Below the pieces are notes generated by a model. That model did not search any database, was not told the origin of the DNA, and saw only the letters and a list, made by a program, of their open reading frames with translations. DNA of 64,000 nt from Auricularia sp. M13 (Eukaryota > Basidiomycota > Agaricomycetes > Auriculariales > Auriculariaceae): NCBI GenBank assembly GCA_037042915.1, contig CM073195.1, positions 1-64,000 on the forward strand, read 5' to 3'. Made by a program: the position numbers and the translations under genes. Of the stretch, positions 16,942-55,933 are shown piece by piece. The first letter of the stretch is position 1; each line of letters opens with the position of its first letter.

Positions 16942-19485
16942 ATGGACCCAAGCGCGCCCACGGCTCCATGGCTGCGATACGAGCCTGGGCTTGCGCACAA
17001 CGACGTCGCCAACCAAAGTAACAGCACGCCGCCGAGCGTGTCTTGCCCTGACGGGCCGACGGCTTCGCCAAACGCATTTAAGCGCGAGCCAGTGGGCGTC
17101 CACTCGGCGCGCATGCTCAACGCCCTCCTCGACGACACGATCGAAAGGATGGCGAACGTGCCGCCTTTTTCTAACGTACCGTATGCTCTCCGAGCGTGGA
17201 ATGAGGACGGCAGGCCGGCGAGCGCGCCCGCTCATCGGCCGCCCGATGTCGTCGTGTCCGTGAGCGTGCAGCAAACGAACGCTCACGCTAGCCGCGCTCT
17301 GTGGGGCGCTGGCTATGAGCCTCACGGGCACGGAGCGCAGACCACCGACAACCCTCGCCGGCTGTCCACTGTCGTCTCGTCCGACGCTCTCGCCGCGTCC
17401 AACCCGGCCGTGAGCGTGAGCGTGCGTTCCGTGCACGCTCACGGCAGCCGCGCTATATGGGCCGCTGGATACGAGCCCCGCGCGCGCGGAACGCAGAACA
17501 TGGACAACCAGCCGGGGAGCGTGCCCGGTAGCCCGCTGCCCGCGCTGCCCGCTTTCGTCGCGTCCAACCCGGCTGTGAACGCGCAGCAAGCGCACGCTCA
17601 CGAACACCACGTTCTGTGCTGCGCTGGCTGCATGCCCTGCGCGCACCGAGCGCACAAAATTGCCAGCAGGCTGGAGAGCGCGCCCACTCGCTCGCCGCCC
17701 GCTCGACCGCCCGTACGCCCGCTGCCTGCACTCTTCGCGAACGACACGGCCGTGAGCGTCCAGCAGCGGCACGCTCACGACCACCACGCTCCGTGCGGCG
17801 CCGGATACGAGCCCTGCGCCCACGGAACGCAGAAAATCGACGTCGGTGCCGTCTGCGCGCCCGTACGCCCACCGCTCGCTCTCCTCGCGCCGCAATCTCC
17901 TCTGCGTATCGACTCCGACCGCGTCCGCAAACCCCTCCGCAAGGTTCATGAGCTTCCGCCGGCGTCCGCTCATCTCGCGGCGAACGAGGCCGTAAATGCG
18001 CTGTCCAGGCACTTGAACGACACACGCGACCTGTGCGACGTCGTACTCCAATTCTGCGCGCATGGGGTGCTCGGCCTCGATGCAACGCCGGCGACCGAGC
18101 CCACGCTCGCGCCCTCCGCGCTCCTCGAGGCCCACAACGCCGTCAAACACGCCCAGTGCGACGCGGGCCTCGTTCTTGAGACTTCGCCCCCCCGTTTTCT
18201 TGCGACCACGGCGGACAGGCGCCCGCCGTTCACTCTCGTCGCGTCCAAAGAGGCCCAGAGCGCGTACATCGCCGACGACGACGATAAGCTCACCCTTTGC
18301 GATGCCGACCGCGCGCTCCGCCCTGCCGGATTGGACACCGCACTGGCAAGCGCGTCTGCGTCCGCTGGTGATGAGCCCGCCGACGTTGCCGTGAGGGCGC
18401 TCTCGGCCCGCGCACACGACGGACGTGCTCTGTGTGCCGCCGGTCACAAACGCCCGTCGTCCGCTCTGCTCGCGCCAAATAATGTCGTGAGCGCGCAGCC
18501 GGCGCACACGTACGATATCCGTGGGCTTTGCAGCCCTGGCCGGCACGACACTTGGCCGCCGACTGAGCCCGGCAGTCCGCCAACCGTGCTCCCCGCGGCC
18601 AATGACGCCGATGAACGCGGTCACCGCAGCGTCGACGATAAGTTGAGTCATGCGGACTCGGCCAGCGCGTGCGTGCGCCGGCCGTTCAAGCGCTGTGCCG
18701 CCAAATTCCTGGACGATGTCATGCTCGACCGCACGCCACCGAGCGCGCCCGCACTCCCGTCATCCGCTCTCCTCGCGTCCAACGCCGTCGTGAGCGCAGA
18801 ACGCGGTCTGTGTAGCGCCGGCCACCACAACTCCATGCCGGTGACCGGGCTCGCTCTCCCGCAGGCCGCGCTCATCGCGGCCCAGGCTCACGAGAGTCGC
18901 GTTCAGTGCGGGGTTGGCCAGGAGCTTTGCGCCGCCGGTTTGTGCTTACCCGACAGCACGCCGGCGAGCGCGTCTGAGCGCCCGCTGTCCGCGGTCATGT
19001 TTGATGATTCTGTGCCCGTCGGCGCCGTTTGCACCACACAGATCGACCACTTGCGCCGCTCAGAAGCTGATCTCGATGCGCCCACCAGCAACATTCTCAC
19101 CGCATTCCAGGTGGACGACGACGCGGTCCACGGTCTGCCCCGTGAACCGAGCACCGTGCAGGTCCGTTTCATCAGCATTATATTATTTCGCCGTTCCTTT
19201 TGACTTACTTTATAGGCTATCGGGACCGTGCTGGCATATTTCTGGGACGGCATCGCCCAGGGACGTTTCGACTTGCCGCCATTTTGCGTTCTGACGGTCC
19301 TCGCGCTCGCCAGCATTCCGATCATCTTCATCTGCGCCGTATCCCTTGCTATAAAAATTCCCAGCCACAGAACATCTATAATGTTCTACCTCGGCACAGC
19401 GGGCGCCAGCGGAATGGCCTCCCTTTTTTGTGCCGTGTTCGCACAAGCCTGCTACTCACGCTTGTCTCGTAGACTGCCCGTATGA
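16942..19485 (+). CDS. Orphan family member A: repeat-rich protein with C-terminal two-helix membrane module
   Basis: Two exons, 16942-19161 and 19216-19485, give 829 aa. The intron 19162-19215 is phase 0. The ATG chosen opens MDPSAPTAPWLRYEPG. Most of exon 1 is an array of roughly nine or ten degenerate units of about 45-60 aa, built around V-[NS]-[AV]-x-Q-x-x-H-A-H, a Cys- or Trp-containing AGYEP/AGHK-type step and a CAHG-like turn. Blocks of Pro/Ala-rich sequence ending in LLASN- or LLAPN-like motifs separate them. Exon 2 encodes AIGTVLAYFWDG followed by two hydrophobic helices (VLTVLALASIPIIFICAVSL and a second in FYLGTAGASGMASLFCAVF) and a short basic tail. No family is recognised. Members B and C share exon 2 at the same splice position. 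A membrane-anchored protein with a variable N-terminal domain is inferred; its function is unknown. Confidence 0.75.
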
Positions 19486-20461
19486 AGCTGTGCCTCGCGC
19501 CGCACTCACGTTTCTTGCACTTTCCTTGTCCTGCTCGGCCGTCCGCAACCCGGATTCCCTGCTCACCAATCTTCTTGACAGTTTTGTAGTGCACTGCCCG
19601 GTAAAAGTGACTTCCTTTTCGCATTAGTCTCACGAATGTTCTGCAAATGCAAATAATGAACATCCGCTAGCAGATGGTGCAAGTACATACCTTCGCACAG
19701 CGCTTCAGGCAAGCTCTGCCTATGCAGAACCACCCAAGCAACAATTCACCAATCTTGAGCACTGCAGATAGATTGCAAGTTATCACAAGTAGTTGAAGGG
19801 AAGTCTATATACGGTTTCGACATGAAACACGACAAGATGCGGGAACGTGAACTGCTCCGAGGTGTCTGGGATCGTGGTGCGGGGCCAGGTGCGCACGATG
19901 GATGCATTGGTGAAAGTCGCGACTGCTGGGAGGTTCATGCATCGAGGCATCAGGAGTGCCGAGGCTGGCGCGCGAGTATCATAGAGTCGCGATCGGTGGT
20001 CGTCAGACCCCGAAATTCGGGAGAACGAGATAGCCGTAGCTCGTTGCGTCGCAATGCGTGGTGGTGTTGGGAAATATCGCAAGCAGCGCCTAGGCGGCGG
20101 TACATACGAGTGAGAGCTCCGGGAAAGAACGGGAAGGCTGAGGGGTGGTGGTCAAAGAACCATATTTTCGATCGAGTTTATGGGCGCAGGAATCAGGTGT
20201 CGAGTTGTGGCTGGCCAAGAGGGGATGGCATTCGAGAATCGCGGCTTGTGGTGGTGGTAGCAAGACACTGGCAGTGCTTCGTGGGTATTCCCAGCCAAGT
20301 GCCAGACGGGTAAACGTCTCGTGAATGAAAGCAGCATGCTGAGGGTGGACAGGCATTGCGGACACATGGTACTTGTCGCAGCACTATACAGGGACACCCT
20401 CGGACTCGAGGGCGCACGCTGTGATGGTGCTCTGGCAATGCCGCAAGGACGGCTGCGCTGA
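19486..20461. other. Intergenic and repeat-derived DNA downstream of gene A
   Basis: No gene is supported. From about 20.1 kb the sequence contains short stretches complementary to the 21.6-22.2 kb repeat, for example a GTGGTGGTGGTAGCAAGACA segment against TGTCTTGCCACCACCACGAA. It is therefore part of the same repeat family in opposite orientation. Confidence 0.4.
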
Positions 20462-21565
20462 CGGCGGGCAGCTCTGGGTGCGGATAGCCGCGTGGACCAC
20501 CGAGGCACGCAGAACCCAGGCGGCTGTCACGGTGCGCACAAGAGAAGCAGCAGGAGCCAACACACGGTCGGCTGCGAGCGGCATTTCCATACCGGGACAT
20601 CGCAACGTTTGAAAGCTCGCGGTTTCCCGATTAGGATCCCGTCATCGGCCCTGCACCGCCACTGCGACTCTTCCCTGGTGGTCACGGTTCCGGCTGGGAT
20701 CACCACCACGAATCGCAATGCAACGCCGCCACGGCGGCTCTCTCGCTCTCCCGTATCGCGCACCATGGATCGCGAGCTGAACAATCTGCGCTCTCTCACT
20801 CGCACCGCAATCTGGACGCACTTTTCCGGGCTGCCTGACGTCTCGGCGCCGCTGAGATCTCGCCGCTGAGATCTCGCCGCACGATTCCTGAGCCCACATC
20901 CCAATCCTCCTCACTCGCTCAGATCGCTTTAGTTCTTTGGCAATCACCGATCGCAGATTCACCGTTACGGATCTCGCCCTCGTATGCACCGCCGCCACGT
21001 CGCTGGACGGGATTGCGCCTCACCGATCCCCGCACCACCACGATTCTACGGATCGCAATCCAATATCCTACCGGTCTCCCATTGTACTCATGCTGGATCA
21101 GGAGACTCTGACAACCCCTTCCGGCCGTTTCTGCGCGTCCCCCTCGGTAACATGACGATGCGCCGCCATTTTCTTGCCACCACCACGAATCTCGATTTGA
21201 AAACTCCCTGCCTCCTTTCCTCCCATTGGATCTTTCGTCTCACGTGCCGATTCATAGACAACCACGAATCGCATGCGAAGTGGCCACGGTTTTCCCGCTT
21301 CTCCCGGATCTCGACCTGACCTATCAGGCTCTCGTACGTACTGGCGCTGTGCCATCACGTCTCGCCACCAGCCTCAGCGCAGCTGATATCTCTCTGCCCG
21401 ATTCCTGAGTTCACATCCCAATCCTTCTCACTTGCCCAGATCGCCCTGGTTTTTTGACAATTACCGATCACAGATTCACTGTTACGGATCCCTCCCCCGT
21501 ATCCACCGCCGCCTCGGTGCTGGATCAGATCGAGTCCCATTGGTCCCAGCTCCACCACGATATTA
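20462..21565 (+). repeat. 1.1 kb dispersed repeat, copy 1
   Basis: Matches 39195-40215 in inverted orientation with few differences. One is an extra stretch of about 80 bp here near 20.50-20.57 kb. It is rich in GATC, CACGAATCGC and CTCGCC motifs. Part of the unit recurs nearby: a segment starting CAATCACCGATCGCA or close variants occurs at about 20.94, 21.46 and 22.14 kb. No coding sequence is convincing. The family is unknown. Confidence 0.75.
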
Positions 21566-22260
21566 CGCACGATTCAATGGCCCACCGGTCTGCCATTGTG
21601 CTCATGCTGGATCGCGATGCTCTGACATCAGAGATCGCGACGCCCCATCGGTGATATTACGATGCATCGCCAGTGTCTTGCCACCACCACGAATCGCGAC
21701 TTGAGAACGCCCTTCCTGTCCTCCGTCTACCGTCTTTCTTCTCACGTGTGGACTCACAGACAGCCACGAATCGCAATGCAACGCGACCCGATCTATCAGG
21801 CCGTTTCTGCGCCTCCTCACACGCGACGCAATGTGTCGGATGCACTCGGGCTGCCATTAGATGATCGCTCTGGTTCTAGAATCAGCCTTCGGCAGGAGTG
21901 GTGCAGCAACTTCTGTTCCGCCTGAGACTGTGCGGTCCTCAATATCTATTTTCCTGTGCTTTGCCGTTGATAGATAGACTAAATAGACTCTTCTCAAGGG
22001 AGCTCCTATTCACCTTCCTGGATGGTTGAATATACCCATGGGAATCCACGGCCGGCACCGGATCGGTCACGGATATGTAACAGATCACGTGATGAGGCGG
22101 GTTTTCGGCCGGGCCTATCTTACCCAGATTGCCCTGGTTCTTTGACAATCACCGATCGCAAATTTATTCTTACGGATCTCGCCTTCGTATGCACCGCCGG
22201 CGCCACAGTCGTCGGCACTGTCACCAACGCTCAGCCCGACAAACCACTCATGGTGCGTTA
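21566..22260 (+). repeat. Further partial units of the same repeat
   Basis: Carries another CACCACCACGAATCGC stretch and a unit of the CAATCACCGATCGCA type at about 22.14 kb, more diverged than the core. It has no counterpart next to the inverted copy at 39 kb, where homology stops near 21.57 kb. Confidence 0.5.
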
Positions 22261-22299
22261 CCACGTTCAAGATTAGCTCATCGCCTTGGTCTAATGTGT

Positions 22300-22917
22300 T
22301 CTGGATATGTTCTTCAGCCGGCCAAAGTCCTTAATCCACTGTACGTCCGTAGTTCACAGAACTTTGGTCCTGCTGAACTTGGGACCCACGCAGAGCATCT
22401 GTTACTCAACCAGGCTTTTCGACGACGCATACCGGTATGCAGCACCTATACAACGGCTGCAAAATGTACAGCGCTGATTGCCCCAAGATGCCCGACGAAC
22501 ACTGCCCGCTGCTGCCCAAACCGGGGCTGCACCTTCGATGCTAGTGCACCTCTCTCCCGTCGCGCAACAAGTGCAATAAAACCCGACCAAGCTGTCTGTA
22601 GGGTCGGTGCAAAAGGCCACAAAGCCTGCCAAGTCTGTTCAACCCGACGTTGTCGCCAAGAAACCCCGCGTGCACGTTGTACAACCAGAGTAAGTGCAGT
22701 AGCCCGTGCATACCGTCTTACTTACCCCGTTACCTTATGCTACTTTGCAAGCGGGACTGGTGAGATAAAAATACTGGCGACACAGAGGCGCCTGGCAGAC
22801 TTATTGGAAAGCTATGGCTGCCTCAGAGCGGCAGGTGCGTCACCTCCGCGTTGTGTGTTTCAGATACTAATCCAGAAGGGTGTCATTCTATCTCAAATTT
22901 CGAAAAGCCAACAATAA
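22300..22917 (+). pseudogene. Possible small gene or gene remnant
   Basis: A plus-strand open frame ends at 22917. Its 3' part (TGEIKILATQRRLADLLESYG, then FQILIQKGVILSQ) has coding character. A GTAAGT donor at about 22691 and a TGCAAG acceptor at about 22751 could join it to an upstream Lys-rich stretch (VQKATKPAKSVQPDVVAKK). Upstream frames are inconsistent and no start is clear. No family is recognised. Confidence 0.25.
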
Positions 22918-23109
22918 ATCGCAATTATGGCCTGCATTATTGCAAGCTTAGCCCGTCTTGCAGGTGTAGGTACTGCATGACAGTCGATCATACCTCTTCG
23001 CATTTAATGCCACAGAACTTGCGGTAGCACGACCATCTCCGCCGTCCGATTGAGCCGGCCAAATGGGAAGAGTTATTTCAGATAGGCATCGTCCTTGACG
23101 GTTTGTCAG

Positions 23110-23298
23110 TCACTTATACGAAATAAAGTGTCGTACGTGACCTTGATAGCGGATCGCGGATAAGATGCGATCGGCAAGGAGGAGCGCATGACTCGTCTGA
23201 GCGTCTGCGTAGCATTGTGCTGCCTCATCCGATAGTAGCTTCCATTCGGCTTCAGCATGTTTGACAGAAGTCTCCAGAGTTTCGCGGCGATGATCCAT
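23110..23298 (-). CDS. Small helical protein, 62 aa, unknown
   Basis: A complete ATG-to-TGA frame on the minus strand. The sequence is strongly helical (METLETSVKHAEAEW-like, then LLLADRILSAIRYQ). It lies divergently about 260 bp from the next gene. A low-confidence single-exon gene or terminal exon. Confidence 0.3.
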   Translation of the reverse strand: MDHRRETLETSVKHAEAEWKLLSDEAAQCYADAQTSHALLLADRILSAIRYQGHVRHFISYK

Positions 23299-23557
23299 GA
23301 CTTCGATGTGCGTGTCTTGGGGAAGGGCAGTATGATAGCCATATTGGTTTTATATCTAGTGTGGCAAACCACCACCTTCGTCCGAGCCTCGCAATGTACA
23401 AGCCACACTCCTCGATAGTATCGAGGGCTCATATCCTAGCCGCGCCAATACATAAACCACGTGGCACATGTGCGCCACATTCCACCACACGCAGCGTCGC
23501 AGAATACTTATACCCACTGACCACCATCTGAGCTTACTGCGACACCAACCAGCTTCA

Positions 23558-24349
23558 ATGTCTCACGCGCATTATACACCTGCCTCTGGTGCGGAGGTCT
23601 CAAACTGGGATAGTGGGGGCGACCCTCTTCCCCCTCCCTTGGAAGAGACGGTGGGCACCGAACTTGCCAATCGAGGACCGCTACCGCGGCAGGAGGTAGT
23701 TGGCGAGGCGCAGTCGTTGCATGCCTTTGCTGCTGCTGCTGCTGATGTGAGTCGTGCCCCCACCCTCAGTCCCCGGCTTGACACATATAAGGCTGCCGAG
23801 GAAATGTCCTTACTTATAGGGCAGCAGCAAGCTGAGATCGAACGCTTGACAGCCCAGTGCGGCCATGCTGAGAGAGATCTTAAGAAGGTAGGGAAGCATT
23901 CTTTTGGCTCCATCTGCGGCGCTGACGACATGCTTCTAACAGCTGCAAGATATAGTGGAATCCGTGGCGCGGTGCAAAAATGTGGTCAGATATCGTCACA
24001 GCCATGGATGTACGTTGTGCTTCCATGGAAAACATGATATTAACATGCATCCGTGAAGGCTACCCGACTGCGGTGAGTATGCAATGCAAGTGACATTCGC
24101 AAGTATTTATGGGGACGCAGGTTGCGTTGCGTGTGACGTATGTATCACCTTCAGTTTCGAGCACGTCGACTTTGCGTGTTGCATTTGCGGCACGAGAGCT
24201 TGGCATGCGCCGCTGCCGGACCAAAAATTGAGCAATTGGTTGTCTCCGTGCTCGAGGCAAGAGGTCTCCGCCCTCTAGAAGAAAGAAGGATCGACCGGGC
24301 GGAGTGGTATACGAAGTTTCCGGGATGTTTTATTCATCTTGGTAGATGA
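23558..24349 (+). pseudogene. Unknown coiled-coil gene with a probable +1 frameshift
   Basis: Exons 23558-23887, 23943-24072 and 24155-24349 with good GT-AG introns. The start ATG opens MSHAHYTPASGAEVSNW. Exon 1 ends in a coiled coil (EEMSLLIGQQQAEIERL). Exon 2 begins LQDIVESVARCK in frame with exon 1. After an A5 run near 23989 the coding signal moves to another frame (MWSDIVTAMDVRCASMENM), so exon 2 is one base too long. Exon 3 (GPKIEQLVVSVLEARGLRP, then DRAEWYTKFPGCF) closes the frame. Either a pseudogene with a one-base insertion or an assembly error in a homopolymer. No family is recognised. Confidence 0.5.
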
Positions 24350-24465
24350 TAATCATACACAGCGCGTCCGCCCGCTCCAATTTCCATCAATCGTAGCGCC
24401 GCTAGCGGCAATCACCGCCTTCTAAGCTCATAACTTAACAATAACATAATCCCGGCCTTTGCGTG

Positions 24466-25490
24466 TTATGTACTCAATTTTGCAGTTGCCAGCACAGACC
24501 ACTCAGAAGTACGCCGACTCGGGGGCGGCAACGGCCGCGCTGCCCGCGTGCTGATGCAGCGGCGCTTCTTCTACCTACCCACCTGAGGCTACCGTTCAGA
24601 CCCAGCACCGCGAGTGCGAGTCACGGGCATTGTCTTGAGCCTCGCGTGCGCCAGGTCGCTCTATATCTGTCTATACGTATCCCGCTGATGGTTGCGCGTC
24701 ACGGGCTGCCTCCTCTGATTTTACAGGCACATGCACGACCGCGACACTGCAAGCGCAAGTTTGTCACATTCTATAAGCACCCATTGATTGCTCGCCGATC
24801 CGATTGTGACGCTAATTATAAGTACCCTCTGCAAAGGAACAAGGAAGCACCTGTCTGACGTTGAGCTTTACTTGCAACGGCGTCTCGGCTGTCAACGCCG
24901 TTGGCGACGAACAGGCTCACCCGCTCGCCGCGCATCTCGCACGACTGCAAGGACTCGACGTGCTGCACGTCGACCGATGCGACGCTGCGTACCGCCCCAC
25001 CTTCCCCGGCAGCATCCACAATACCGCAGGGTGAGCCTCCAATTCTCATCTGAGGCGCACCACTTCATGGTCTCCTTTGCATCCTCTGTTGGAAGATACT
25101 TCTGCAAATTCGCTCCGCCCTCTCGCTCCGCCGCTGCCCCTGCTGGTAACCCCTCCACCGAAATCCTGGCGCCCTGACCACTGGTTTGGGCCCGACGCCA
25201 CGAGCGCCGCGAGTTCGCTCTCAAGATCACCGCGTTCCCTCTGTCTGCTCTTGGTAGTCAGGCACACCTTCGTGCCCTCCTGGCGCAATGCCATGCTACT
25301 TCTTCGTGGCAGTCCGTCTCGGATGTCCACATACTGTGTTCTCACCACCCTGGAGTACTATTCAGGGTTACTGGCATTGCTTGGAGTTCAGGTGCTGGAT
25401 TGTCGATGTTGCTGATTAAATATAGGTGGCACCGGATCATTCGCGTGGCACAAAGAATCTTTCAGCGATCGGCGGCCGTGACTCGAGCCA
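24466..25490 (+). pseudogene. Decayed gene fragments, family unknown
   Basis: Islands of coding character on the plus strand: a possible terminal exon at about 24486-24553; AHPLAAHLARLQGLDVLHVD with a GTGAGC donor near 25032; and RREFALKITAFPLSALGSQA running on to about 25490 (RVAQRIFQRSAAVTRARQAA). The Leu spacing of the second island suggests a leucine-rich F-box-type protein, but this is weak. The islands do not connect in a single frame. Confidence 0.3.
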
Positions 25491-25689
25491 GGCAAGCTGC
25501 TTTGTGATTACAAAAAGCTGCACCTCCAATTTGGGGTATGAATGACGGTATGTGCCTCTTAGAATTGTGAAGCGTCACAATTGCACGAGCCAGGTTGCAC
25601 TCACTCTTGCCACTGTGCCACCGATGGGAATACTTATAAACGAGTGCACCGACTTGGCATTTCAATGTCGTGCATCTGATTCATTCGCC

Positions 25690-26254
25690 ATGGCACCCAC
25701 CCGTTCTGAAGGTCCTAAGCGACGGGGTGTAAAGACCTATGCGCGTGTTCAAGACGGAGGCACACACGCCTTCAATCCCGGAGTTGAGGTCTGTCGGATC
25801 TCTCATCGCGCCCTGCCTAGAAACTGACGCGCTGCAGGGGAAGAAATCTAATGATCTCGATCTCGTGGCAGAAATGTCCAAGGCGCTTGAGTGCGTCTTC
25901 TGTATGCTACATGTGAAAAGCTTGTGGGTGTACGTTTTGCGATCAAGTCATTTGTTACCTGCCTTGCTGAAACCCGTGAGCAGATCAAGCTGCGGGCACG
26001 GGCCCTTCCACATAGCATGCTTCAAGATTTGGGTCGACAGAGAGCCGACCAAACAGCTAGTCAAGTGCCCAGTATGCGCCAAGCTCATGCATCACGCACC
26101 CACGAAGGTCTATGCGCTTGGTCCTGCGATTGAACGCATTGCCTTGCTCGCTGGGGAGGAAGATCCAGACGAAGATCATGATCACTCATGGCTCAGCAGA
26201 TCTACAACACGATTCCTCATTCCTCGCCTCAAGAATGTTCGTCCACGCGAGTAG
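25690..26254 (+). CDS. RING-H2 finger protein (probable E3 ubiquitin ligase)
   Basis: Three exons, 25690-25788, 25838-25923 and 25984-26254, give 151 aa. Introns are 49 and 60 bp with GT-AG ends and frame is kept. The N-terminus is basic (MAPTRSEGPKRRGVKTYAR). The RING spans about residues 47-87 with metal ligands C-x2-C (CVFC), C-x-H-x3-H-x2-C (CGHGPFHIAC) and C-x2-C (CPVC), a C3H2C3 RING-H2 pattern. The second intron falls inside the first loop of the finger. RING-H2 proteins recruit E2 enzymes and promote substrate ubiquitination. The substrate is unknown. The acidic tail (EEDPDEDHDH) is low complexity. No transmembrane helix is seen. Confidence 0.75.
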
Positions 26255-26299
26255 TGGTAGTAGCACCTTACTAGCATAAGCAACAACATTAGAACCCGT

Positions 26300-26610: not shown

Positions 26611-26739
26611 GAATGATGACACAGTCAGTCTCATGGTCAAGCAGTCAGGCTGCAAGTCATGATCTCTTTTATTCAATTCACGGCGTGAGAGCGGGTGTGA
26701 AACAAGCAACTGACTATGAAAATGTTTTATAGATTACAC

Positions 26740-29075: not shown

Positions 29076-29094
29076 ACATGCGTGCGGCGACGAC

Positions 29095-34300: not shown

Positions 34301-34350
34301 ATTTGTTTGTCCATGGTTGAACCGACAACATCCAGCGCACCAGCCCACGC

Positions 34351-45800: not shown

Positions 45801-47114
45801 TTTCTGGTGGGCGACGCGCGGGCCCTCCGTGCCCGGCGGCACACCGATCTTGTGTTCGATAAAGTCGACGAGGCGCACCTCCTTGAGCGAGAGCGTGAAG
45901 ACATCCGCGTACTCGCGCACGAGGTCGCGCACCGCCTCGCGCTCCTCGGGCGCGAGGTCGTTACCGATGCGGACTGCGTCCAGGACCCGCTGCACGCGAC
46001 CTGGCGCTAGTCGCTCCTCCTGTGACATCTCCGGGGCGCGCGCCGGCGCCATGGCTTCCTGGACGAGTAGCAGGCTAGGCAGCACCTCCGCCCAGTGCAC
46101 CGTGCCGCGCGGTGCCCTCCCTGTGGCCTGGCCGGCGGGGTCCTCCCACTCGGCCAGTATGCGCGCCGCCTGTTCGGTGCGCTGCTCGTCGGCACGTCTC
46201 ATGGCGTCGGCGAGGACGGCGGTCTCCAGGGCGCGCTGCTGCGCCAGCGCGCGCCGTCTTGCACCGCGGACCCTGCGCGGTCTCTCGCCGGCGAGCGGCG
46301 TTGGCTCTGGCTCCTGCGCCGCGTCGGCTGTGCTGGGCGGTGGGTCGTCGTCGTAGAGGCGGACTGCCATGCCGGTTGCGTCTTCTATCGCGCGGTCCAT
46401 CGCGGTCCTGGTGTCCTCGGCGGCGGGCGCGGTCGCCAAAGACAGTGGACACGCCGGAGCGGGAGCCTGCGCAGCCGCAGGCGGGTCGGCGGCGCGCGAC
46501 GGCGTGGACGGCGTCGACGTGGACGCGGGTGACGACGCTATAGCGCCCGTGACAGCGTTCGGTATGAGGATTGGCGGCCGGGTGCTGTCGGCCCATATTA
46601 GCGCGTCCTGTACGAAGTCGTGCGCCAGGCCCGCGCATCGCAGCCATGGCTTTCCCAGCAGCGTTTCGAAGCTGCCCCCGGAGTCGAAGACCTCGAAGCC
46701 GGCCGTGACCACGATAGGCCCCAGTTGGACGGTGCCTGCCCACCGGCCGATGGAATCGACTACGCGGCCGTCCGCGATGCGCGCCTGCGCCGCAGACGGT
46801 TGTAGGGTGCCCATGGTGAGCCTGTTCCCGTCGTAGAACGTCCAGTCGAGGACGTTAATCATCCCGCCGCCGTCCACAGTTGCTACGGCCGACGTTCCGA
46901 CCGGCGTCGCTCCTCGCAACGTCACCAGGTGTTTGAACGGCGCCTCGGGCGCATGCTTCACGTCTTCGACATGCGCGATCTGGAACGGTGCGTCGCACGA
47001 ATAGGGGAATAGGATCGTATTCAGCCACTGACTAGAACGGTGTGACAGATACGACACTCCCCTGCGGGGGGCGCAAGCCGCTAACCCCCATGTACGTGTA
47101 TCCACTTCTTCCAT
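42815..47114 (-). pseudogene. gypsy pol region
   Basis: In order on the minus strand: an aspartic-protease-like stretch (ATVDGGGMINVLDW), a reverse transcriptase (FMAGFNAIPVAQDDIAYTAF, VDDCALWGDEF), an RNase H (EYASKRTSRTEERYTPYML) and an integrase. The integrase has an HHCC-type segment (HASGHWGRDLCVES, CSPCKAFG) and a catalytic core (FFTADYLSLPKGRGGYR, ELFGTDGGRHF, SPWANGLVEECNRLL). Broken overall. Confidence 0.9.
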
Positions 47115-47145
47115 AACCGCGATGTCTCCCCGTGGCCGCGCTCCG

Positions 47146-48560
47146 TCACGACTGGCCGCCGCTGCGCGAGCCCGCTGCGGGCGGGAAGAGCTTGATGGCG
47201 GAGGTGGCGCGCGCTCTAGAGCGCCACCTCCTCCCCATTTCCCTGTTCGGCTTCCGCGTCGTCGCCCAGCTCCGAGTAGTCGACCTCACCGTCGTGCTCG
47301 CCTGGCACCGCGCCCGCAATGTAGTGCAGCGGCGAGGGCGATGCCGGCGTGCCCGGGGCTGCGAAGATGCCTCGCCGCGGCCGCGCCAGGGTTCTGGCGA
47401 CAACGCCCCTGGCGTCATGGGTATCGGCGCGCCTCGTCCGCGTCCTGTTCCTGCGCCCGCGCTCGTCCTGTTGCGCGCCGAGACCGCATTGAAGCGGTAG
47501 CGCTGTTCCGTCTCCGGCAGCGGGTTGGGGCTGGCGCACGTATACTGATTGTGCGTCGCTGTCTCGGGTTGGCCGCACCGCGCGCATCCCACGGCGGCTG
47601 CGGCGGTTCCTGGCGTTAGCGGGTACCCGCGGTTGAGGTACGCGCGTCCGTCCGGGAAGCGTTCGGCCCACGCGCGGCGCTCCTGCGCGATGCGCGCCTC
47701 GTTGGCCGGTGTCCTCGGTGGCGGCGTCGCGTATATGTCGACGAACGGGCGCCCCACCGTGCCCGGCTGCTGCTGCTGCTGCGCCGCCTGTGGTTGCGTG
47801 TTATCGCGCGCCATCGGTGGCGTGGGCGCGTGTCCGGTGCTCGCCGCGCGCGGCGTCTGTGCGGGCAGCTGCTGGCGCCACGCTGGCTGCTGTCGAGCGG
47901 GCGGAGGCGCGCTGCGCGCTTGTGCCTCGGCCTGCGCCTGCTCGACGCTGTCGAGCCTGCTGTACACGCGCTGCTTCTGCAGCATCGTGCTCGCCTTGAG
48001 TGCGCCGAGCGAGCGGCACCACGTCGTCCAGTCTTCCCCGTGCGCGTCCATGAGCTCGGCCACTGCAGGCGGGATCTGCGCCTTCGCCTTCAGGATCAGC
48101 GCCTCGGCGGGGAGCGTCGTCTTGGCTCCCAGCCGGCGAAGTGTGTCGGCGAACAGCACGTGCGAGTACTGCGTCTTGCTGCCCACGCCAGTCGGTACCC
48201 GCACGCCAATGTCCTCGGCCGGGAATATGCAGGCCTCGAACGCTTCAATGTGCTCTTCGATGCCGACCCGTCGTGCCGCGCGGGGCGGCCACTCGTTATT
48301 GAATTGGATGAGGATGGTGGCGTGCGACGCACGCTGCACGTTTGTCAGGCCTTGCCACCATGTCTCAGCGTGGCTCCCTTCCTCGATATGCGCTTCGAAC
48401 AGGCGCGCCGAACGGCTGTCGAGGTTTGCTTGCGAGACCTCGAGCGTGGCCTCGGTTATGTACTTTTTCCACTCGCTCAACCAGACCCGCGCGTCGTCTG
48501 GGTCTTCTCCGTCAAAGTTGCGAATGCCGTGACGTGCGCGCTGTCGACTGTCTGTGTGTA
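47146..48560 (-). pseudogene. gypsy gag region
   Basis: Retrotransposon gag core: FDGEDPDDARVWLSEWKKYI, ETWWQGLTNVQRASH, QFNNEWPPRAARR. A Gln/Pro/Ala-rich linker and a CARCGQPETATHNQYTC zinc knuckle follow. The open frame is continuous with the 5' part of the SUN gene through the LTR. Confidence 0.85.
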
Positions 48561-48747
48561 AAGATTGTGGCTGATAGCTCCGGGCCGGTGGTGATTGCAG
48601 CAGATGCGGCGGTGTGTCCCGGACGAGGTTTGCGTTGTTTACGAAAAATTCGACGTGTCTCGCGCCCGTCTGCGCGGCGGGCGTTTCGTAGCGTCTGTAG
48701 GCCAGAGTGGAAGACGAGGAAGTAAGAGAAATGCAGCTGTCGCCACG

Positions 48748-48851
48748 TGTGGCAGTCTCCTGGCCCTCGGATGCAGAGAGAAAGGGAAAGAGTGTGATGA
48801 TGATGACGGAACCTAATCTACATCCGGATGATGTCTGAATCCTCTGGTACA
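48748..48851 (-). repeat. 5' LTR of the gypsy element
   Basis: 104 bp, identical to 42711-42814, with CCGT at its outer edge. Confidence 0.95.
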
Positions 48852-48855
48852 CCGT

Positions 48856-49616
48856 CATTTCGGGAGGAATGTCGCGGTGCGGGAACTCTGCAGCAAGCCG
48901 GCGCAATTGACTGCCCGGCACGCTGACGAGGCCCCAGAGGGTGAGCTGATTGGGAGTGCAAGTTTCTGCTGAGGCAACAGAAGCACGTTTGAGGGAGACA
49001 CGATCGATGCGCAATGGACGAGGCGGCGCGATCCCTAGTCGACCTCGAGTACCAGCGAAGTACCAGAGCACCCTTGGGTCAGCGAAAATTCCCAAAGCTG
49101 CTTCTGGCGCTGAAGGAGGCCCAGAGCTAGAAGCCACGGCGGCGTTTATGTGGTGGCGAAGTCCAATGCTATTGTTGAGGAGAGTGTTGGTTGGGACACG
49201 AAGTGACTGGGAAGTGAGCTCGTCGATGACCCGTGCGCCGTTTTGAAATTGAAAGTAATCGACGGCTGGGATAGCATCCGACTGAACAGACATGTGCGAG
49301 CACTGTGCCTCGGAGACGTCGTCCTTCGAGATGGTAATGCGTCTCGAGAATAGCACAAAGGAGACGTGGTCCGGCAGAAAAATCCACGCGATAACGGGGC
49401 TGATAAGTAGTACGAAAGCAATTGCCATGAGACACATGCTCTGCAGGACATCGGTAAGTCTTCCAAGGTATGTACTACCTGTGAATATGAAATTACCTGC
49501 GTGTGACCATTCTGGCGTCGTGTACCAGATATATATGGACTGCCACTGGCACCGATGCTAGATTTTGGTGTGGCGTCGAACCATTGCGAGGAGCGGAAGC
49601 GGAGGTCAGTAGTCAT
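48856..49616 (-). pseudogene. SUN-domain protein gene, 5' part, interrupted by the gypsy element
   Basis: Exon 1 is 49616-49497 (ATG, MTTDLRFRSSQWFDATPKSS); a 56-bp intron follows; exon 2 starts at 49440 and runs into the insertion. Exon 2 opens with a membrane helix (MCLMAIAFVLLISPVIAWIF) followed by a lumenal segment and the start of a SUN domain: LWYFAGTRGRLGIAPPRPLR, VSLKRAS, LTLWGLV. SUN proteins sit in the inner nuclear membrane or ER and contact KASH partners or cell-wall/ER factors. With the 3' part the gene would be about 325 codons, compact for the family. The insertion removes the last third of the SUN domain from the reading frame. Confidence 0.75.
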
Positions 49617-49759
49617 GGTCGGGTTCGAACAAAGAGAGTGTCGGAGTTTACGACCGGGCTATGACGCGCAGTCAACTAGTCAACCGCCGGTAGACCTATT
49701 ATGCCTATTATGGACTATATGTACACCCTTCCTCAATTATTTCTACTGTAATACGGCGG

Positions 49760-50254
49760 GTGTGCCAGGTACGTCCAGCGTCTCCACCGCCAACATCTGT
49801 GCGGCGACTCTTGAGCAACTCTATCAGCTTTGGCAGCGGAAGAATCAACCGAACCAAGGCTGTCGGCGACCTCCAGCGCTGGCCCAGGACACCGACCCCT
49901 ACCTCGACGCCATATTCCAACACGTCTGTTCGACCGTCATCGCTCGCGCTGCCGCCGCTGCTTTCCGGCCAACCCCGTTCGGCGCTGCCGTACGGCCAGC
50001 CGTCGTTCGCCATCGCTCGCTCGCCGTCCCCGTCTCAGCGCAATAGTTATCCGATGACGGCGACGACGAGCATCCCGCAGTCAACGGTGCGAGGGAGGAA
50101 ATCGTACGTTGCGCGCTTGCGAGGGTTGACTAGCACCCCTCGCCCCGTTTCGAGCATCAGGGGCGAGATCCTTCGCCAAGCCCATCACGCCTCACGTCGC
50201 CCGCACGTGCCATCCGGGCAAACTGGGCGAAGAGCGGGACGGCCGACTGCTTAG
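49760..50254 (+). CDS. Possible Ser/Pro/Arg-rich protein, unknown
   Basis: A plus-strand open frame of about 160 codons, divergent from the SUN gene, with a low-complexity composition (RTPTPTSTPYSNTSVRPSS, ARLRGLTSTPRPVSSIRGEI). No domain is recognised. The start is unclear: a GTACGT donor-like site at 49769 suggests an upstream exon. It may be a real disordered protein or a chance frame. Confidence 0.3.
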   Translation: MCQVRPASPPPTSVRRLLSNSISFGSGRINRTKAVGDLQRWPRTPTPTSTPYSNTSVRPSSLALPPLLSGQPRSALPYGQPSFAIARSPSPSQRNSYPMTATTSIPQSTVRGRKSYVARLRGLTSTPRPVSSIRGEILRQAHHASRRPHVPSGQTGRRAGRPTA

Positions 50255-50374
50255 CAAATGCGTCAGCTGGCTTGTTTGGCTTTAGCTTGACTGCGGGTCC
50301 TGAGAGCGAAGATTGTGATTGCCGTTATGTCGGGATGCCTCTCAGAATTGAACTTCCTTCCTTCCTTCCTGCGC

Positions 50375-50440
50375 CTGTAGCGTAGCGGTATCTCAGGTCT
50401 AGGGCGCTCATTGTTCCAATCGCAACTGCCGCTATTCTAG
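50375..50440 (+). repeat. Degenerate tRNA-like sequence
   Basis: TAGCGTAGCGGTATC resembles a tRNA A box and GTTCCAATCGC about 25 bp on resembles a B box. Neither acceptor nor anticodon stem can be closed with confidence. A tRNA pseudogene or SINE head is possible. A CTTC tandem tract precedes it. Confidence 0.25.
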
Positions 50441-50534
50441 CTAAAGCACGGCTTCGCTGACTCGATATTATTATAATACAGTCGCACCCAGCAACATAGC
50501 ATTGGATAAATATACAAAATCATCCGACTGCGCT

Positions 50535-51028
50535 TCAAATCCACTGCGGCGAGAGTTGCCGGGTATGGGGAAGCCAGAGCCAGAACCCTGAATGTACAGG
50601 ATGCTCTTGCCCTCCAATGGCTTTCGTCCAGCAGAGATCAGTGCCAGCGTGTTTGCCATCTTTGGGCACAAGCACCCATAACACAGCGTCGTCCTTCGTC
50701 AGGCATAGGTATAGATCCCCCGGCGTACCGTCGAGCTTGGACGGTTCGGAAGACTGGGGCCCAAATATCGTGGTGAATCGGTACGCGATGTCCGTGCCGG
50801 GGAGGAAAAATATATCGCTACCAAATCCATTAAGCTTCTAAATTTTATAGAGTGAATGACGTACGGTTTGGTTTCCAACATCCCCTGGGCCATAGCATGG
50901 TCAACACTCTCCGAGCCGTCTCGGCCTGCGCACCCCACGAGAACATCATCGCCCAAGAATTCCCATTGGGAATCGATAGGATTGTCGTTGAGACATTTTT
51001 CTGAGGATTTCCTTCGGGAGCTGGTCAT
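50535..51028 (-). CDS. Small single-domain protein, unknown
   Basis: Two exons, 51028-50865 and 50817-50535, give 148 aa; the 47-bp intron has a GTACGT donor and keeps frame. The protein starts MTSSRRKSSEKCLNDNP. The second exon reads IFFLPGTDIAYRFTTIFGPQ, GDLYLCLTKDDAVLWVLVPK, then HSGFWLWLPHTRQLSPQWI and stops. The regular alternation of aromatic and hydrophobic residues suggests a compact beta-rich domain. I do not recognise the family. In another frame just after the stop, FEAQSDDFVYLSNAMLLG has coding character, so the C-terminus may have been shortened by a one-base change. Confidence 0.6.
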
Positions 51029-51648
51029 TTCTAGTTCGATATATTGCCCAGCGACTCACCGTACTGCCAGATTTTTCAAAAGATAGAGAGATCGTGTCAA
51101 CTTCGCAACCTCATCCATGGCGAGACAGTCGATGGTGGCGGATTGACATCCCATTATATGTATTGGTCGACCACCACGCGAAAAGGGAGGCTGGGGGCGA
51201 CTAATCATGAGGACAACCGATAAGGTAACTCGGTGGTGGTTGAACTCGCAGATCTGGACGTGGATAATCGTGCTTTGGAGCGCGAGAGGCGATCGCGTGT
51301 CTGCTCTCCACCACCGCCTCTCAAATAACTGTAACGGCGCAAACGTTTGATTTTCACTGGAAGCAAATATACACTGCTATGAGCCCGCCTCGTCCGAGCG
51401 TATAATAGCCGTTAGCCAAGTGTGCAGAGCCAGTTCTCAGCGTGCGAGGTCGCGTATATGCCGTGTCTGGTCGATAATGCTAGAGAATAATTTCGCGTTC
51501 TTGCGCGCAAGACGGGTCACATGAAGCGAGCAAATTCGGGGTGTATTCAAGGGAAGCACCGGACACCTGGGCCAGACTACCACCGATCTCGAGCAGTTTG
51601 TGCAAGAATGAAGCGAGAAATTTCCGGATAACGCAGACCAAGTGATGA
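51029..51648. other. Intergenic
   Basis: Upstream region of the 50.5-51.0 kb gene and 3' flank of the WD40 gene. No further gene, repeat or RNA gene is supported. Confidence 0.4.
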
Positions 51649-53113
51649 CTAAGACAAGCTACGACGGTGTAACCAAAACCCACAAATGCAAGCCACGAGC
51701 GCAAGCACGATACCAACGGCACGCCATGCGACAAAGCTTCCGGTCTTCCGAATAGCTGGAAAATCCGCATTCCACACTTGAATTATGGCAAGCGTGCCTT
51801 GTGGAGTGCGAGTACCGCACGCTACTCAGAAACCTTGATCATTGTAAGTTGCCTGACGTGCATCAGCGCACGAGTATGGTAAGATATTGGCAAACTTACT
51901 GCAAGGGCACTAATGGGCCAGCCGTGATGGACTACGCATTTTGAGCGTGTGTGCATGGGGAAAGACAAGGAAGACTTACGCTTAGGTTTGAGAATGACTA
52001 TTCCCACGTCAGACTGCGAAGCCTTGATTTCCCGAATGCTCCTGAGTATAACCTTGCCGTCCTCGGTGCCGTGTATCAATGCATGGCCGTTGTGAACAAG
52101 CAGGCAAGGCATGTGAACGAGACCGCTGTGTCTGTGTGCTCCGGCGAAAAAGTTCGTTTCCGTGTCGTAGAGCTCGATTCGGCCACGAGCATAAGAAACG
52201 GCAGCTAGCGATCCAAAAAACGCGGCATCGACTCTAATCAAAATATCAGCCCCAATGGAGGGACCAAACACCACCAGAGAAGCAACGTTACCTTGGATCT
52301 TGCCCTTGGCACGATATCTCTCTGATCCGTGCCCCCTTTTCGATATCCCAAAGGCTACGAGCGATGAGTAAAGTGAAAATGGAAAGTTGTGATCAACTGA
52401 CACAAAGGGGTGATGCGTGTACGCGACAGCGAATTGGGATTTGTTCAGCCAATATAGCCCTGTCACGGTGAAGTGCTGAGGTGCGGGGCGCTTGCCACTG
52501 CCAGGGGTGACGGAGCATGCATGTTGCAGTTGCTTCCTCCGTTTCCAGTCATTCCCGTGCCCTGATGACAGCCAATGAGGTTTGCGTAGTGAAAATGTCA
52601 TTTGCTCTCGAAAACTGACCTGGGGTATTCCAGAGCACGAATCCATTGTCGCTGGCCGTGAGCAATTGACGGTTTGCTTCGCTGTATGCCATGCAGTGGA
52701 TTAACGATGGATGGTCCGGGAATGTGCACACGTCGATCTGTGCGATGCATCACATTGAGGACGAGATGAGGTGAACGATTCATGCTCACTGTGCTAGTTC
52801 CTTCGTCCCGCGTGAGGGATGTGAGCGTGCCATCCCGCCCGGCCACCACCAGCCCAATATCCAGCCATAGCACCTGCGAGAGACCAAACTTCATCTCGAA
52901 TGCGTATTCATGAGGTACTGGCGTAATGTCGTTCCCGAGATTCCAGACTACGAGATATGCCGAAAATTCGGAATCTCGATTGCCAGGTTCGACCTGGTGG
53001 CCGGCATCGATTGACGCGATATGTCGACCAGTGGGACTGAATGCCAGCGAGACAACTGCATCGCGATGGAATTGGGAAAAGAACTGGTCGGTCTCGTATT
53101 TGGCAGAGGGCAT
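51649..53113 (-). CDS. WD40-repeat protein with C-terminal membrane helix
   Basis: Exons 53113-52790, 52737-52620, 52561-51980, 51931-51900 and a last exon ending at 51649. The first four join in frame; the acceptor of the last one (about 51839) is not settled. The chosen ATG opens MPSAKYETDQFFSQFHRDAV. WD40 blades are visible: VVSLAFSPTGRHIASID then YLVVWNL; MAYSEANRQLLTASDNGFVLW; SYARGRIELYDTE; LLVHNGHALIHGTEDGKVIL. The C-terminus has GTLAIIQVWNADFPAIRK and then a membrane helix (AVGIVLALVACICGFWLHRR). WD40 propellers with a tail anchor usually scaffold complexes at membranes. An ATG at 53392 is also in frame, but the sequence between reads like UTR or intron. Confidence 0.65.
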
Positions 53114-53858
53114 TGGGGGACGTCGGTGGCGGAAGGAGAGGGCCACACGTGCCAGCCGTTTTATTGTGGTGAGGACAAAGACGTTTATCCGCGGATATTC
53201 CGTGGCACGCACGGTCACTGGAACGAACACCACTTGCACCGCAGGAAACGTACGCATTGATTCCGAAAAGGATACGCAGAAAAATGTCCCCAAAATGCAA
53301 CTCGTTCGAATGTCGTCCGCGACTGCACGGCACCCGTTCGCAATGACGATTCTGATCATTCTGCTTCCCGGGCAGGAGACCGAAATGTTCATAAGCAATT
53401 CACTGGGATATGTGAATATGCGGGGTCAACGAACGCAAGGCAGCGCAAGAAATTGGAAAAGGGGATCGAGGAACATTCCAGAAAGTTCGGTGCTTACTGC
53501 ACGTGTCAATGATCGGCATGTCAATGATGTCAACTCCAGTTTATGTAAATCGCGGCGGAAAGGGCAGAGCCCTGAATACTTACCTAGATCTCCAGTTCTC
53601 AGATCATGCCTACACCGGAGCTCTCATCCGCATCCGGCCATGGAGATCCAACATCTGAGCCATCTTCCTCGTCACGTGCCCACTGCGGACGGCGTGCATC
53701 ACTGTGTTCTACCCAACCCTCGCATTGGGCCATCCTCGCGCACGCTTGTCACCGACGCCCACCCATTTACACCTGAAGCCGGCTCCAAGGGGTGTCGCTC
53801 CCCACTGTCTGCCATGCGGAGCGCTCTAACCTAGATCTCCGGATATCCGGATTCCATC
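53114..53858. other. Intergenic between the WD40 gene and gene C
   Basis: Divergent promoter region. A long plus-strand open frame (52926-53834) is mostly the antisense shadow of the WD40 gene and is not annotated. A small palindrome, CCGGATATCCGG, lies 20 bp before the gene C ATG. Confidence 0.4.
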
Positions 53859-55933
53859 ATGTCCTCGCAGCTTGGCCGCGACCGTTTGCACTTGGAGGAG
53901 CGCGACGCGCGGCGTTGTATGGCGCTCGCTTCATTGGAGTCAAGGATTGCGCGTGTTGCAGCGCGGGCGGTGGAGGCAGCGCTGAGGCAGCGGGCTGAGC
54001 AACTTGCGGCGCGGACGATGCGATGGAAGTTGAAGCAGCGGCGGGTGCGGCGGGCGGATGAGCGGCGGGTGGGTGCAGCGGGGAGACGAGCGAGCGCGGA
54101 GCAGACGACTGCGGGCGGCGACGGCGGCGACGGCGCGCAGACAAGAGGCCGCGCGGGTGTCCGGATGTGCACGCGTCCAAGGGGCGCGCGCCTCGAGCCG
54201 ATGCGCTGCATCCGCGACGACGAACGCGAAGACCAACTCCACGGCCGCACTGTCGGGCAAGTCGGCACACACAAAGCGCACGCCGAAACTATGCAGCGGC
54301 GCGCCGCGCGGTGTCGAGCCCGAGAACGTGAGCGACTGGTTCGAGAAGCGCAGCCACGGCGGGCAGCGCGTCGCCCGACGCGAGCGTCGCGCCGTAGTAC
54401 AGTGTACCCTGGCGCGGCCGCGACGTGCACGAATGGGCATTCGAGGCCGAGGCTGAAGGACCAACCTGGCGGGATACGCGTGCGGGCGACGGCAAGAAGG
54501 ACGGCAGAAGCGGGCGTGCGCGGGAAGATGGTCAGGCGGGCGGCGGGAAGACGAAAGGGCGGACGGCAGGCGCGGCGGGCAGACAAGCGGCGGGAAGACG
54601 ACTGCGCGCAGACGAGCGCCGAGAAAACCAACGGTGGGCAGACGAGCGGCGGGCAGAAGAGCAGGCAAAAGCGTAACGGCCGATGTTTTCGCCTGTTAAG
54701 CATGACAGCTCGTCCGCCGGCTCCCGCTGCTCTCCCAATGTCCGGCAGCAAGCAGACACCGACCAACGATCCGGGCGCTGACGACGCGCACGTCGCGTCG
54801 TCACTCGATCATACGCCACAGCACGCAGACGCCGAACTGGGCGCCGCGGCTGCACGGCGTGCCTCTACGCATGCTCAACAATCCGCGTCATGCAGACGGC
54901 GCGCGGCAGCCCGACGCTGCCCTTCATCCGTTCTCCTGCACGGCCGAACCGCGGGGTCTGTTCGACGCCGTCGGCACATCACTGACGTCGAGCTCCAGCA
55001 GCACCATCCGCCCCGGTGCCGCCTGACGATGCAAGCCCATGCGTGGAGCAGCACGATGAGGAGGCCGACGCGTAGAATCCAGTCGGCCGCGCAGACCCGC
55101 TCGTGCTGCTGCAGATGCAGCTTGCTGAACTCGAGGGCGTGGGCAAGGAGCGCGACGCTCTGCAGCGGGAGCGTGATGCGCACGCACATCAGCACGCGCA
55201 GTTGGGCCAGCGCGCGCACGCAGGACGATGTCGCGCAGGAGCACGTCGCGCGCGCGGCGGCCGTCGTTCACGATGGCCCGTATGCAACCACATCGTCTGC
55301 GGACGGACTCGAGAGCATGCGCGCGCTCGGTTCCGAGCATCGCGCTCCCGTCCGTGTGCAGGGTGTGACCAAGCTCGTCCTGGACTTCTTGGCTCTTCCA
55401 ATGGATGAACCGGGCGCAGACGCAGGCAACGAAGACGTTCAAGCCGCGTCGCTGGAAGGGCTCGAAGGAGTTGATGACCGACGCACTCAGCTGCTTCACG
55501 CAACCGCGCTGCCTGCTGTCGGAAATTCTCTCGTCAGTTAGTATTCTTGTTATCATCTTCTTTACTCACCGTCCGTGCCACCGTCAAGAGCGCGGCCCAC
55601 GCCACAGACGCGAGTCGTGTCGTGACGCTGCCTTCTGGACTTGGACAGCTTGAGGTGAGCTCCGCGTGTTCACCTACTACTTCACTCACATCGCGATTAC
55701 AGGCTGTTGGCACCGTGTTTGCCTTGTTCCGGGAGGCGGTCTACGACGGCCAAGTCATTTTCCCACCGCACTGCATTCTGACCGTGCTCTCCTTTGCATG
55801 TCTTCCTTTCATCTTGGCGACTGCTTCCTACCTGACCGTCAGATACCCCGACGTCGAGCCCGCGATCAACAATATCGCTTGCTCTGCGGCCGACATCGCG
55901 TACATCTCGTGCGTTGCCTTTGCGTATGCTTGA
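53859..55933 (+). CDS. Orphan family member C: two-helix membrane protein with low-complexity N-terminus
   Basis: Exons 53859-55532, 55589-55654 and 55703-55933 give 655 aa; introns are phase 0 and sit exactly where those of gene B do. Exon 2 is again 22 codons (SAAHATDASRVVTLPSGLGQLE). Exon 3 encodes AVGTVFALFREAV, helix ILTVLSFACLPFILATASYL, loop VRYPD, and a second weakly hydrophobic helix ending VAFAYA. The start opens MSSQLGRDRLHLEERD, as in gene B. A GC-rich low-complexity block (about 54.02-54.68 kb) sits in exon 1. Around 55.10-55.20 kb a different frame has stronger coiled-coil character (LAELEGVGKERDALQRE), so small indels may have shifted part of the protein. The function is unknown. 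An alternative start at 54738 would skip the GC-rich block. Confidence 0.6.
54020..54680. repeat. GC-rich low-complexity block inside gene C exon 1
   Basis: Same word set as 26740-27265 (GGGCAGACGAGCGG, GACGGC, GGCGGGAAGACGA). After it, the sequence around 54.69-54.75 kb resembles the DNA just after the block near gene B (a TGTTAAGCATGACAGCTC / TGTCAGGCGTGACAGCTC match). The blocks therefore occupy different places relative to the MSSQLG/MLPSQLG start in the two genes. Confidence 0.5.

Follow-up and report, generated by a model that had tools for sequence, protein, structure and literature searches.

Three paralogous orphan genes of Auricularia sp. M13 with a common 5' element, a predicted C-terminal membrane hairpin and a changing interior

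Introduction

The wtf genes of fission yeast are reported to encode proteins predicted to cross the membrane, for which no obvious orthologues are known beyond S. pombe; their intragenic repeats vary, and a conserved stretch of 133-289 bp precedes the start codon (PMC6526906). In this work, we analyzed a 64,000-nucleotide stretch of Auricularia sp. M13 (GenBank assembly GCA_037042915.1, contig CM073195.1, positions 1 to 64,000; hereafter, the window), in which three genes, named A, B and C, end in the same predicted two-helix membrane module and start behind the same short DNA element. Tail-anchored and hairpin-anchored membrane proteins likewise carry their anchor at the C-terminus.

A first-pass annotation, made from the sequence alone, had placed the genes at 16942-19485 (A), 27484-28768 (B) and 53859-55933 (C) and described them as an orphan family in which variable repeat N-termini precede a constant membrane anchor. 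The analysis presented herein retains the module and the intron preceding it, but not the starts of B and C nor the exact length of a small exon. Considered jointly, the results point towards three paralogues of one orphan family, encoding hairpin-anchored cytosolic proteins with conserved ends and a turned-over interior within a transposon-rich region, a reading that we hold to be reasonably probable.

Results

A shared C-terminal module

The last exons of the three genes are as follows.
19216 to 19485, + strand: gene A module exon, 89 amino acids (aa) plus stop; predicted two-helix hairpin; related to B and C by tblastn and Smith-Waterman alignment; AlphaFold2 predicted local distance difference test (pLDDT) 68.5
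28511 to 28768, + strand: gene B module exon, 85 aa plus stop; basic C-tail KSRRRRTRTRNV; AlphaFold2 hairpin, pLDDT 75.7
55703 to 55933, + strand: gene C module exon, 76 aa plus stop; without a basic tail

The modules proper (19216-19482, 28511-28765 and 55703-55930, all on the + strand and translated from the window) align with 21 invariant columns, and that of B is 49% identical to that of C and 39% identical to that of A. Smith-Waterman scores were 119 (A-B), 118 (A-C) and 169 (B-C), while the highest scores among 2000 shuffles of each pair were 52, 72 and 64, respectively; the pairwise similarity thus lies 16-23 standard deviations above the shuffles (z). In tblastn, each module recovered the other two, at E-values between about 1e-8 (A-B) and 8e-20 (B module plus small exon against C). 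The proposal that one two-helix module ends all three genes was thus borne out. Identity at codon positions 1/2/3 was 0.66/0.77/0.59 for B-C, 0.56/0.59/0.38 for B-A and 0.55/0.66/0.30 for C-A, and the proportion of nonsynonymous differences (pN) was lower than that of synonymous ones (pS) in 3/3 pairs; because position 3 is the least conserved and pN < pS in every pair, the substitution pattern marks the module as a real coding sequence. When all stop-to-stop segments of 40 aa or more in the six frames were searched by hmmsearch with its filters off, no fourth module copy was detected in the window, and only the three modules and the small exons of B and C scored above the inclusion threshold.

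Introns and the small exon

An intron of phase 0 with GT...AG ends is predicted immediately 5' of the first Ala codon of the module in A, B and C (donors GTCCGT, GTGCGT and GTGAGC; acceptors TATAG, AACAG and TACAG, respectively). At the level of predicted splice sites, the earlier observation of a phase-0 intron directly before the module therefore holds for 3/3 genes.
19162 to 19215, + strand: gene A predicted intron, 54 bp, phase 0, GTCCGT...TATAG
28396 to 28461, + strand: gene B small exon, 66 bp with a GAG acceptor, uncertain, from splice enumeration
55608 to 55654, + strand: gene C small exon, 47 bp with a CAG acceptor; alternatively 55589-55654, 66 bp with an AAG acceptor

B and C had also been assigned an additional exon of exactly 66 bp. 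Enumeration of in-frame GT..AG pairs within the searched ranges gave four models in B and five in C, of which two in each gene contain a 66-bp exon, and all four of these use GAG (B) or AAG (C) acceptors, which are rare. A CAG acceptor leads to a 47-bp exon with donor GTTAGT in C and to a 50-bp exon in B, though in the latter only with the poor donor GTGCCC. What B and C have in common is the exon's end, TLxSGxGxLE. Hence, the similar exon end stands, whereas the exact 66 bp is weakened, since it requires non-YAG acceptors and the 47-bp CAG alternative is present in C.

A 5' element and revised start codons

Upstream of all three genes lies a 19-bp imperfect palindrome, which the first-pass annotation had overlooked.
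16903 to 16921, + strand: 5' element of A, CTGTCAAACGCGACAGCTC, ending 20 nt from ATG 16942
27289 to 27307, + strand: 5' element of B, CTGTCAGGCGTGACAGCTC, ending 20 nt from ATG 27328
54693 to 54711, + strand: 5' element of C, CTGTTAAGCATGACAGCTC, ending 26 nt from ATG 54738

The ATGs nearest to the element, 20, 20 and 26 nt downstream in A, B and C, are in frame with the open frame that runs toward the module. The gene A coordinates fit as first given. Because the common element lies 20 and 26 nt upstream of in-frame ATGs in B and C, their start codons are most likely near 27328 and 54738, and on the position of the element these replace 27484 and 53859. Both former starts fall on a short block common to exon 1 of B (27491) and the region upstream of C (53863), in which 20/21 bases are identical. 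Since this block is located 3' of the element in B but ~830 bp 5' of it in C (834 bp from 53859 to the element), the copy upstream of C is probably a stray leftover of another copy.

The pattern CTGTYARRCRYGACAGCTC, allowing up to three mismatches, matched the window three times, all at A, B and C (shuffles: mean 0.41, 0/100 reaching three), although it was composed once the three sites were known. A fairer test was therefore made with the best three-way 19-mer within 120 bp upstream of the starts; this showed 10 pairwise mismatches, whereas the lowest number was 14 among 200 random window triples and 21 among 200 shuffles. In this test, the B and C starts had still been picked in the knowledge of the element. 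When the 5'-flank DNA was aligned locally, the scores were reached by 0 (A/B), 1 (B/C) and 1 (A/C) of 300 shuffles. The strict dyad CTGTCA-N4-TGACAG with 2 mismatches was unspecific (5 window matches vs 2.68 expected) and so, by number, was the half-site YGACAGCTC (3 matches, all at A, B and C, vs 1.9 expected). As RNA, the element can form a short fold in 3/3 genes, but not one clearly better than shuffles. We interpret it as a putative family-specific promoter or 5'-untranslated region (5'-UTR) element, probably a transcription-factor site and possibly a 5'-UTR hairpin.

Coding frames of the first exons

The exons between these two ends, and the region formerly taken as the start of C, are the following.
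16942 to 19161, + strand: gene A exon 1, rich in Ala and Pro over its 740 codons; degenerate ~30-aa repeat in 5 full and 3 partial copies
27328 to 28347, + strand: gene B exon 1, revised start; 93-bp/31-aa in-frame repeat, three times, at 27609-27888
54738 to 55536, + strand: gene C exon 1, revised start; frame 0 open, codon signal shifting near 54849, 55009 and 55220
53859 to 54692, + strand: copied block of B exon 1, then low-complexity DNA; more likely upstream non-coding

No stop interrupts the open frame of A (740 codons, 14.3 expected) or B (340 codons, 7.5 expected). With a codon model trained on A, the frame of B was the best of the three forward frames in 12/12 overlapping windows, and leave-one-out models assigned one frame each to A and B with 0 slips at penalties of 8 and 12. 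When all six frames were compared, the + frame was best in 21/28 windows of A (B-trained) and 10/12 of B (A-trained) and had the highest total in both genes; this leave-one-out six-frame model settles the strand of A as +.

In exon 1 of C, a model trained on A and B changed frame near 54849, 55009 and 55220 and then returned to the original frame when slips were penalized by 12 or 16; the fourth slip that these runs place, at 55536, coincides with the end of the stretch, and a penalty of 8 yields one more. The + frame was the best of six in 4/9 windows. Since the first exon switches coding frame about three times, C reads as decayed or frame-scrambled: either the gene is in decay and its composition keeps the frame open, or compensating shifts have done so, or the assembly contains indels. 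Introns were considered as a cause of the frame changes and rejected; there are 3 GT..AG candidates, 0 with a branch-site match, and two of them end near the 55220 change. Further upstream, the stretch 53859-54737 has a T content of 0.109 and a G content of 0.41 and includes a 15-bp GC-rich tandem array at 54572-54662, and 53859-54692, taken in the frame first proposed, has a negative coding score in 7/10 windows and is the best of six frames in 1/10. The repeat N-terminus once ascribed to C thus dissolves into mostly low-complexity DNA, with a non-coding score in that frame, plus a frame-disrupted exon.

Between the first exons of the three genes, no similarity stood clearly above shuffles in the frame pairings tried. 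The score between the first-exon ends of B (95 residues) and C (about 75) was reached by 23/2000 shuffles, and B and C may share these ends; accordingly, the claim that the N-terminal parts are unrelated stands for whole first exons under the shuffle test and gives way at the possibly related B/C ends. Beyond the stop codons, B and C also resemble each other.
28772 to 28947, + strand: 3' flank of B, similar to 55969-56134 of C; local DNA alignment, score reached by 0/300 shuffles
The 3' flank of A, over the 300 bp compared, showed no significant similarity to that of B (62/300 shuffles) or C (220/300).

Repeats and selection

The three 93-bp units of B (31 aa each) differ with pN of 0.11-0.16 and pS of 0.26-0.44. 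In A, a ~30-aa unit with the core AHxxRaLCgAGYePcAHG occurs in 5 full and 3 partial degenerate copies, with two further very weak 8-residue matches; its profile was seeded with four visually selected repeats and iterated on this one protein, which is also the source of the E-values. Over 24 codons of five aligned cores, pooled pN was 0.35 and pS 0.41, with pN > pS in 3/10 pairs (r1-r3, r2-r3 and r2-r4). Constraint is thus visible in the repeats of B and slight in those of A. The label of a diversifying repeat domain does not suit these values, as selection appears not to be uniformly diversifying, with pN < pS in B and near-neutral cores in A.

Predicted membrane topology

The first transmembrane helix (TM1) is strongly hydrophobic, with Kyte-Doolittle (KD) values of 2.74 (A), 2.72 (B) and 2.09 (C), and the second (TM2) weakly so, with 1.42, 1.62 and 1.60, respectively. 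The loop between them carries charges of +2 (A), 0 (B) and -1 (C), and the C-tail +3 in A, +7 in B and 0 in C, which is without a tail. By hydropathy, neither A nor B has a hydrophobic N-terminal segment (KD19 maximum over the first 50 residues, -0.36 and -0.18). Basic segments tend to lie on the cytosolic side (positive-inside rule); given this rule and the basic C-tails of A and B, both ends of the hairpin would be cytosolic, and the likeliest topology is a C-terminal hairpin anchor with both ends in the cytosol. AlphaFold2 modelled a helical hairpin for the modules of B (pLDDT 75.7, predicted template modelling score (pTM) 0.50) and A (pLDDT 68.5, pTM 0.46). That a membrane anchor stays constant below variable N-termini in a repeat-rich region, as first noticed, is supported.

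Among the best 50 of 95 Foldseek matches to the hairpin, most were F-type ATP synthase c subunits (8fkj_K and others). The likeness to the c-ring (best E 1.1; root-mean-square deviation of 8.0 and 14% identity at rank 1) was set aside as a generic hairpin shape.

Relatives in sequence collections and literature

Pfam-A matched no family at E<=1 in full A, in full B (from the earlier start) or in exons 2-3 of C, and likewise none in exon 1 of B read from 27328 or in frame 0 of C exon 1; sub-threshold matches (E 0.09-0.41) fell on another frame of C, the block 53859-54737 or the opposite strand only. No transposase, integrase or reverse transcriptase domain was matched by Pfam in the open reading frames (ORFs) of A, B and C. 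With the module profile, PDB sequences gave 0 matches at E<=10, the ATP synthase c subunit included, and none were found there for the first exons of A and B. Searches of PHROGs with all three modules, and of phages with the C module, gave none. In IMG/VR, 4 (three-row profile), 23 (C module) and 11 (A module) stretches fitted the pattern and 0 were confirmed; in GTDB genomes the module profile gave 2 stretches, 0 confirmed. The collections searched cover prokaryotes, viruses, phages and solved structures, so absence there says little on fungi; "orphan" is used here for a family without relatives in these collections, and it may be known elsewhere. Within them and Pfam, we found no described family that matches either, in line with the first-pass annotation, and the open-access titles and abstract openings surveyed contained no account of the family or of the 5' element.

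Genomic surroundings

The region is rich in mobile elements, and the transposon types and short introns by themselves suggest a fungal, probably basidiomycete, genome. Pfam identified RVT_2 and rve/SH3 ORFs between 261-bp direct repeats that are 98.9% alike (6923-12156). Other Pfam matches are an F-box ORF (40522-42051) and, at 31271-32194, an ORF with the CxC4 domain associated with KDZ transposases. An element resembling a long terminal repeat (LTR) retrotransposon at 42711-48851 has identical 104-bp ends, an integrase ORF and a sub-threshold RVT_1 match, and because its ends are identical it was probably inserted recently. A 1.39-kb insertion occupies 62026-63415. Its direct terminal repeats are 185 bp long and 98.9% alike, its ends are TG...CA, and 5 bp of the target, AGTAC, seem to be duplicated; it resembles a small non-autonomous LTR element and splits a second copy of the repeat found at 29075-30889. 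One 280-bp unit forms tandem arrays in two places, at 29596-30326, near the KDZ-associated CxC4 ORF, and at 61318-62008, with 29884-30326 and 61318-61760 being 97% alike. The arms of a 301-bp inverted repeat, at 37703-38003 and 38207-38507 (96% complementary, 203 nt between), possibly form a small foldback element.

Gene B is bracketed by a ~1-kb inverted pair (20574-21567 / 39189-40179; 93.8%, 17.6 kb apart) with internal ~500-bp duplications. A large transposon around B bounded by this pair was considered and rejected: no target-site duplication was seen in the flanks examined, and for this reason the pair is more likely two dispersed copies than the ends of one element.

Read-through Pfam scans of 12150-16901 and 56000-60842 (both strands), 20000-27400, 30900-36502 and 49500-53801 (+ strand), and 35000-38002 and 49500-54801 (- strand) added only a weak zf-RVT match. 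These scans are not fully sensitive, since they missed a weak RING match, that of the ORF at 25733-26251 to zf-RING_2 (E 2.6e-5, 24.9 bits vs a cutoff of 27.3).

Discussion

As judged from the three copies, this is a small, fast-changing family with conserved ends. We propose that each gene keeps two ends, the 19-bp imperfect dyad before the start codon and the last exon for a C-terminal hairpin of ~76-89 residues, and that repeats, altered length and, in C, shifts of frame would have turned over the exon between them. The proteins would most likely be inserted post-translationally by the hairpin, leaving the long low-complexity N-terminal part in the cytosol, and may act as membrane-tethered tails or scaffolds.

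Several observations weigh against parts of this proposal. The AlphaFold2 models were built on 3 sequences, with pTM of 0.46-0.50, TM2 is weakly hydrophobic in 3/3 genes, so that a single membrane pass is possible, and the loop charge of A makes its topology less clear-cut. For the 5' element, the circularity of the two pattern tests noted above is joined by unremarkable RNA folding z-scores (-1.25, -0.26 and 0.66), and in the repeats of A, purifying selection is barely apparent. As to C, frame 0 is open for 265 codons where 6.1 stops are expected, the alternative frames favored in mid-C contain stops, and among single-frame totals that of frame 0 is the highest (19.9 vs -91.5 and -84.5); these three points lead away from simple decay.

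Under one rival reading, all three genes would be pseudogenes in which real gene remnants are limited to the module and its intron, the long first exons being GC-rich open frames. The frame changes in C would fit, as would the long opposite-strand open frames (e.g. 617 aa at 16909-18759) and an earlier codon model, for which B, the modules and the F-box ORF served as the training set and which put a reverse frame ahead in 13/23 windows of A, with one tie, and left the strand of A unsettled. We nevertheless regard it as unlikely, given that A and B hold a single coding frame in the leave-one-out models and lack any of the expected stops, that the 93-bp repeats are in frame with pN < pS, and that the 5' element adjoins in-frame ATGs. 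It is similarly doubtful that the module is a transposon-encoded or transposon-carried peptide spread by the KDZ or LTR elements of the region. The KDZ-associated ORF lies at 31271-32194 and B ends 307 bp before the repeat at 29075, which recurs at 60810, but within the 300 bp compared the homology of B and C stops about 180-200 bp past the stop codons, short of that repeat, the 3' flank of A shows no significant similarity to either, and none of the three genes matches a Pfam domain of transposable elements. A cell-surface location with the variable repeats exposed, in keeping with the first-pass inference to surface or self/non-self proteins, would account for membrane helices combined with repeat N-termini; yet the missing hydrophobic N-terminal segment and the basic C-tails of A and B leave that inference unsupported and make such a location improbable.

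A selfish or self/non-self membrane family acting like the wtf killer genes, with their alternative poison and antidote transcripts, would explain, by analogy, the lack of relatives in the searched libraries, the in-frame repeats, the membrane helices, the conserved upstream element and the setting rich in transposable elements. However, the repeats of A and B lie outside the membrane part, whereas those of wtf genes are described as often overlapping predicted transmembrane domains (PMC6526906), and the B repeats change under purifying rather than diversifying selection; we consider this reading very unlikely. Slightly less credence still is given to a fungal recognition or killer system in which the dyad and the hairpin exon stay constant while the interior is repeatedly replaced, including the frame-compensated shifts of C.

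Should the hairpin-anchored family be expressed, it would offer a compact case of orphan protein turnover with fixed ends and a changing middle, and C would represent a copy that seems to have slipped out of its coding frame and back again. The 5' element would provide a handle to find members whose interiors no longer align, and the family would gain weight if interiors vary among strains.

Compared with known systems, the module resembles the F-type ATP synthase c subunit in being a two-helix hairpin of similar length and departs from it in sequence and fold statistics (Foldseek E at best 1.1, 14% identity), with no homology. Tail-anchored and hairpin-anchored proteins in general agree with A and B in the C-terminal anchor, and A and B have no hydrophobic N-terminus and carry a basic tail; the differences are that no sequence relative was present in the libraries searched and that the topology here is a predicted one. 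The wtf family of Schizosaccharomyces pombe is similar in comprising orphan, multi-copy membrane proteins with variable intragenic repeats and a conserved upstream region, and dissimilar in that the repeats of the present genes are N-terminal to a single C-terminal hairpin and, probably, in host group, the likeness being one of description (PMC6526906). By analogy, the wtf genes would be the closest parallel in life-style among those considered (PMC6526906).

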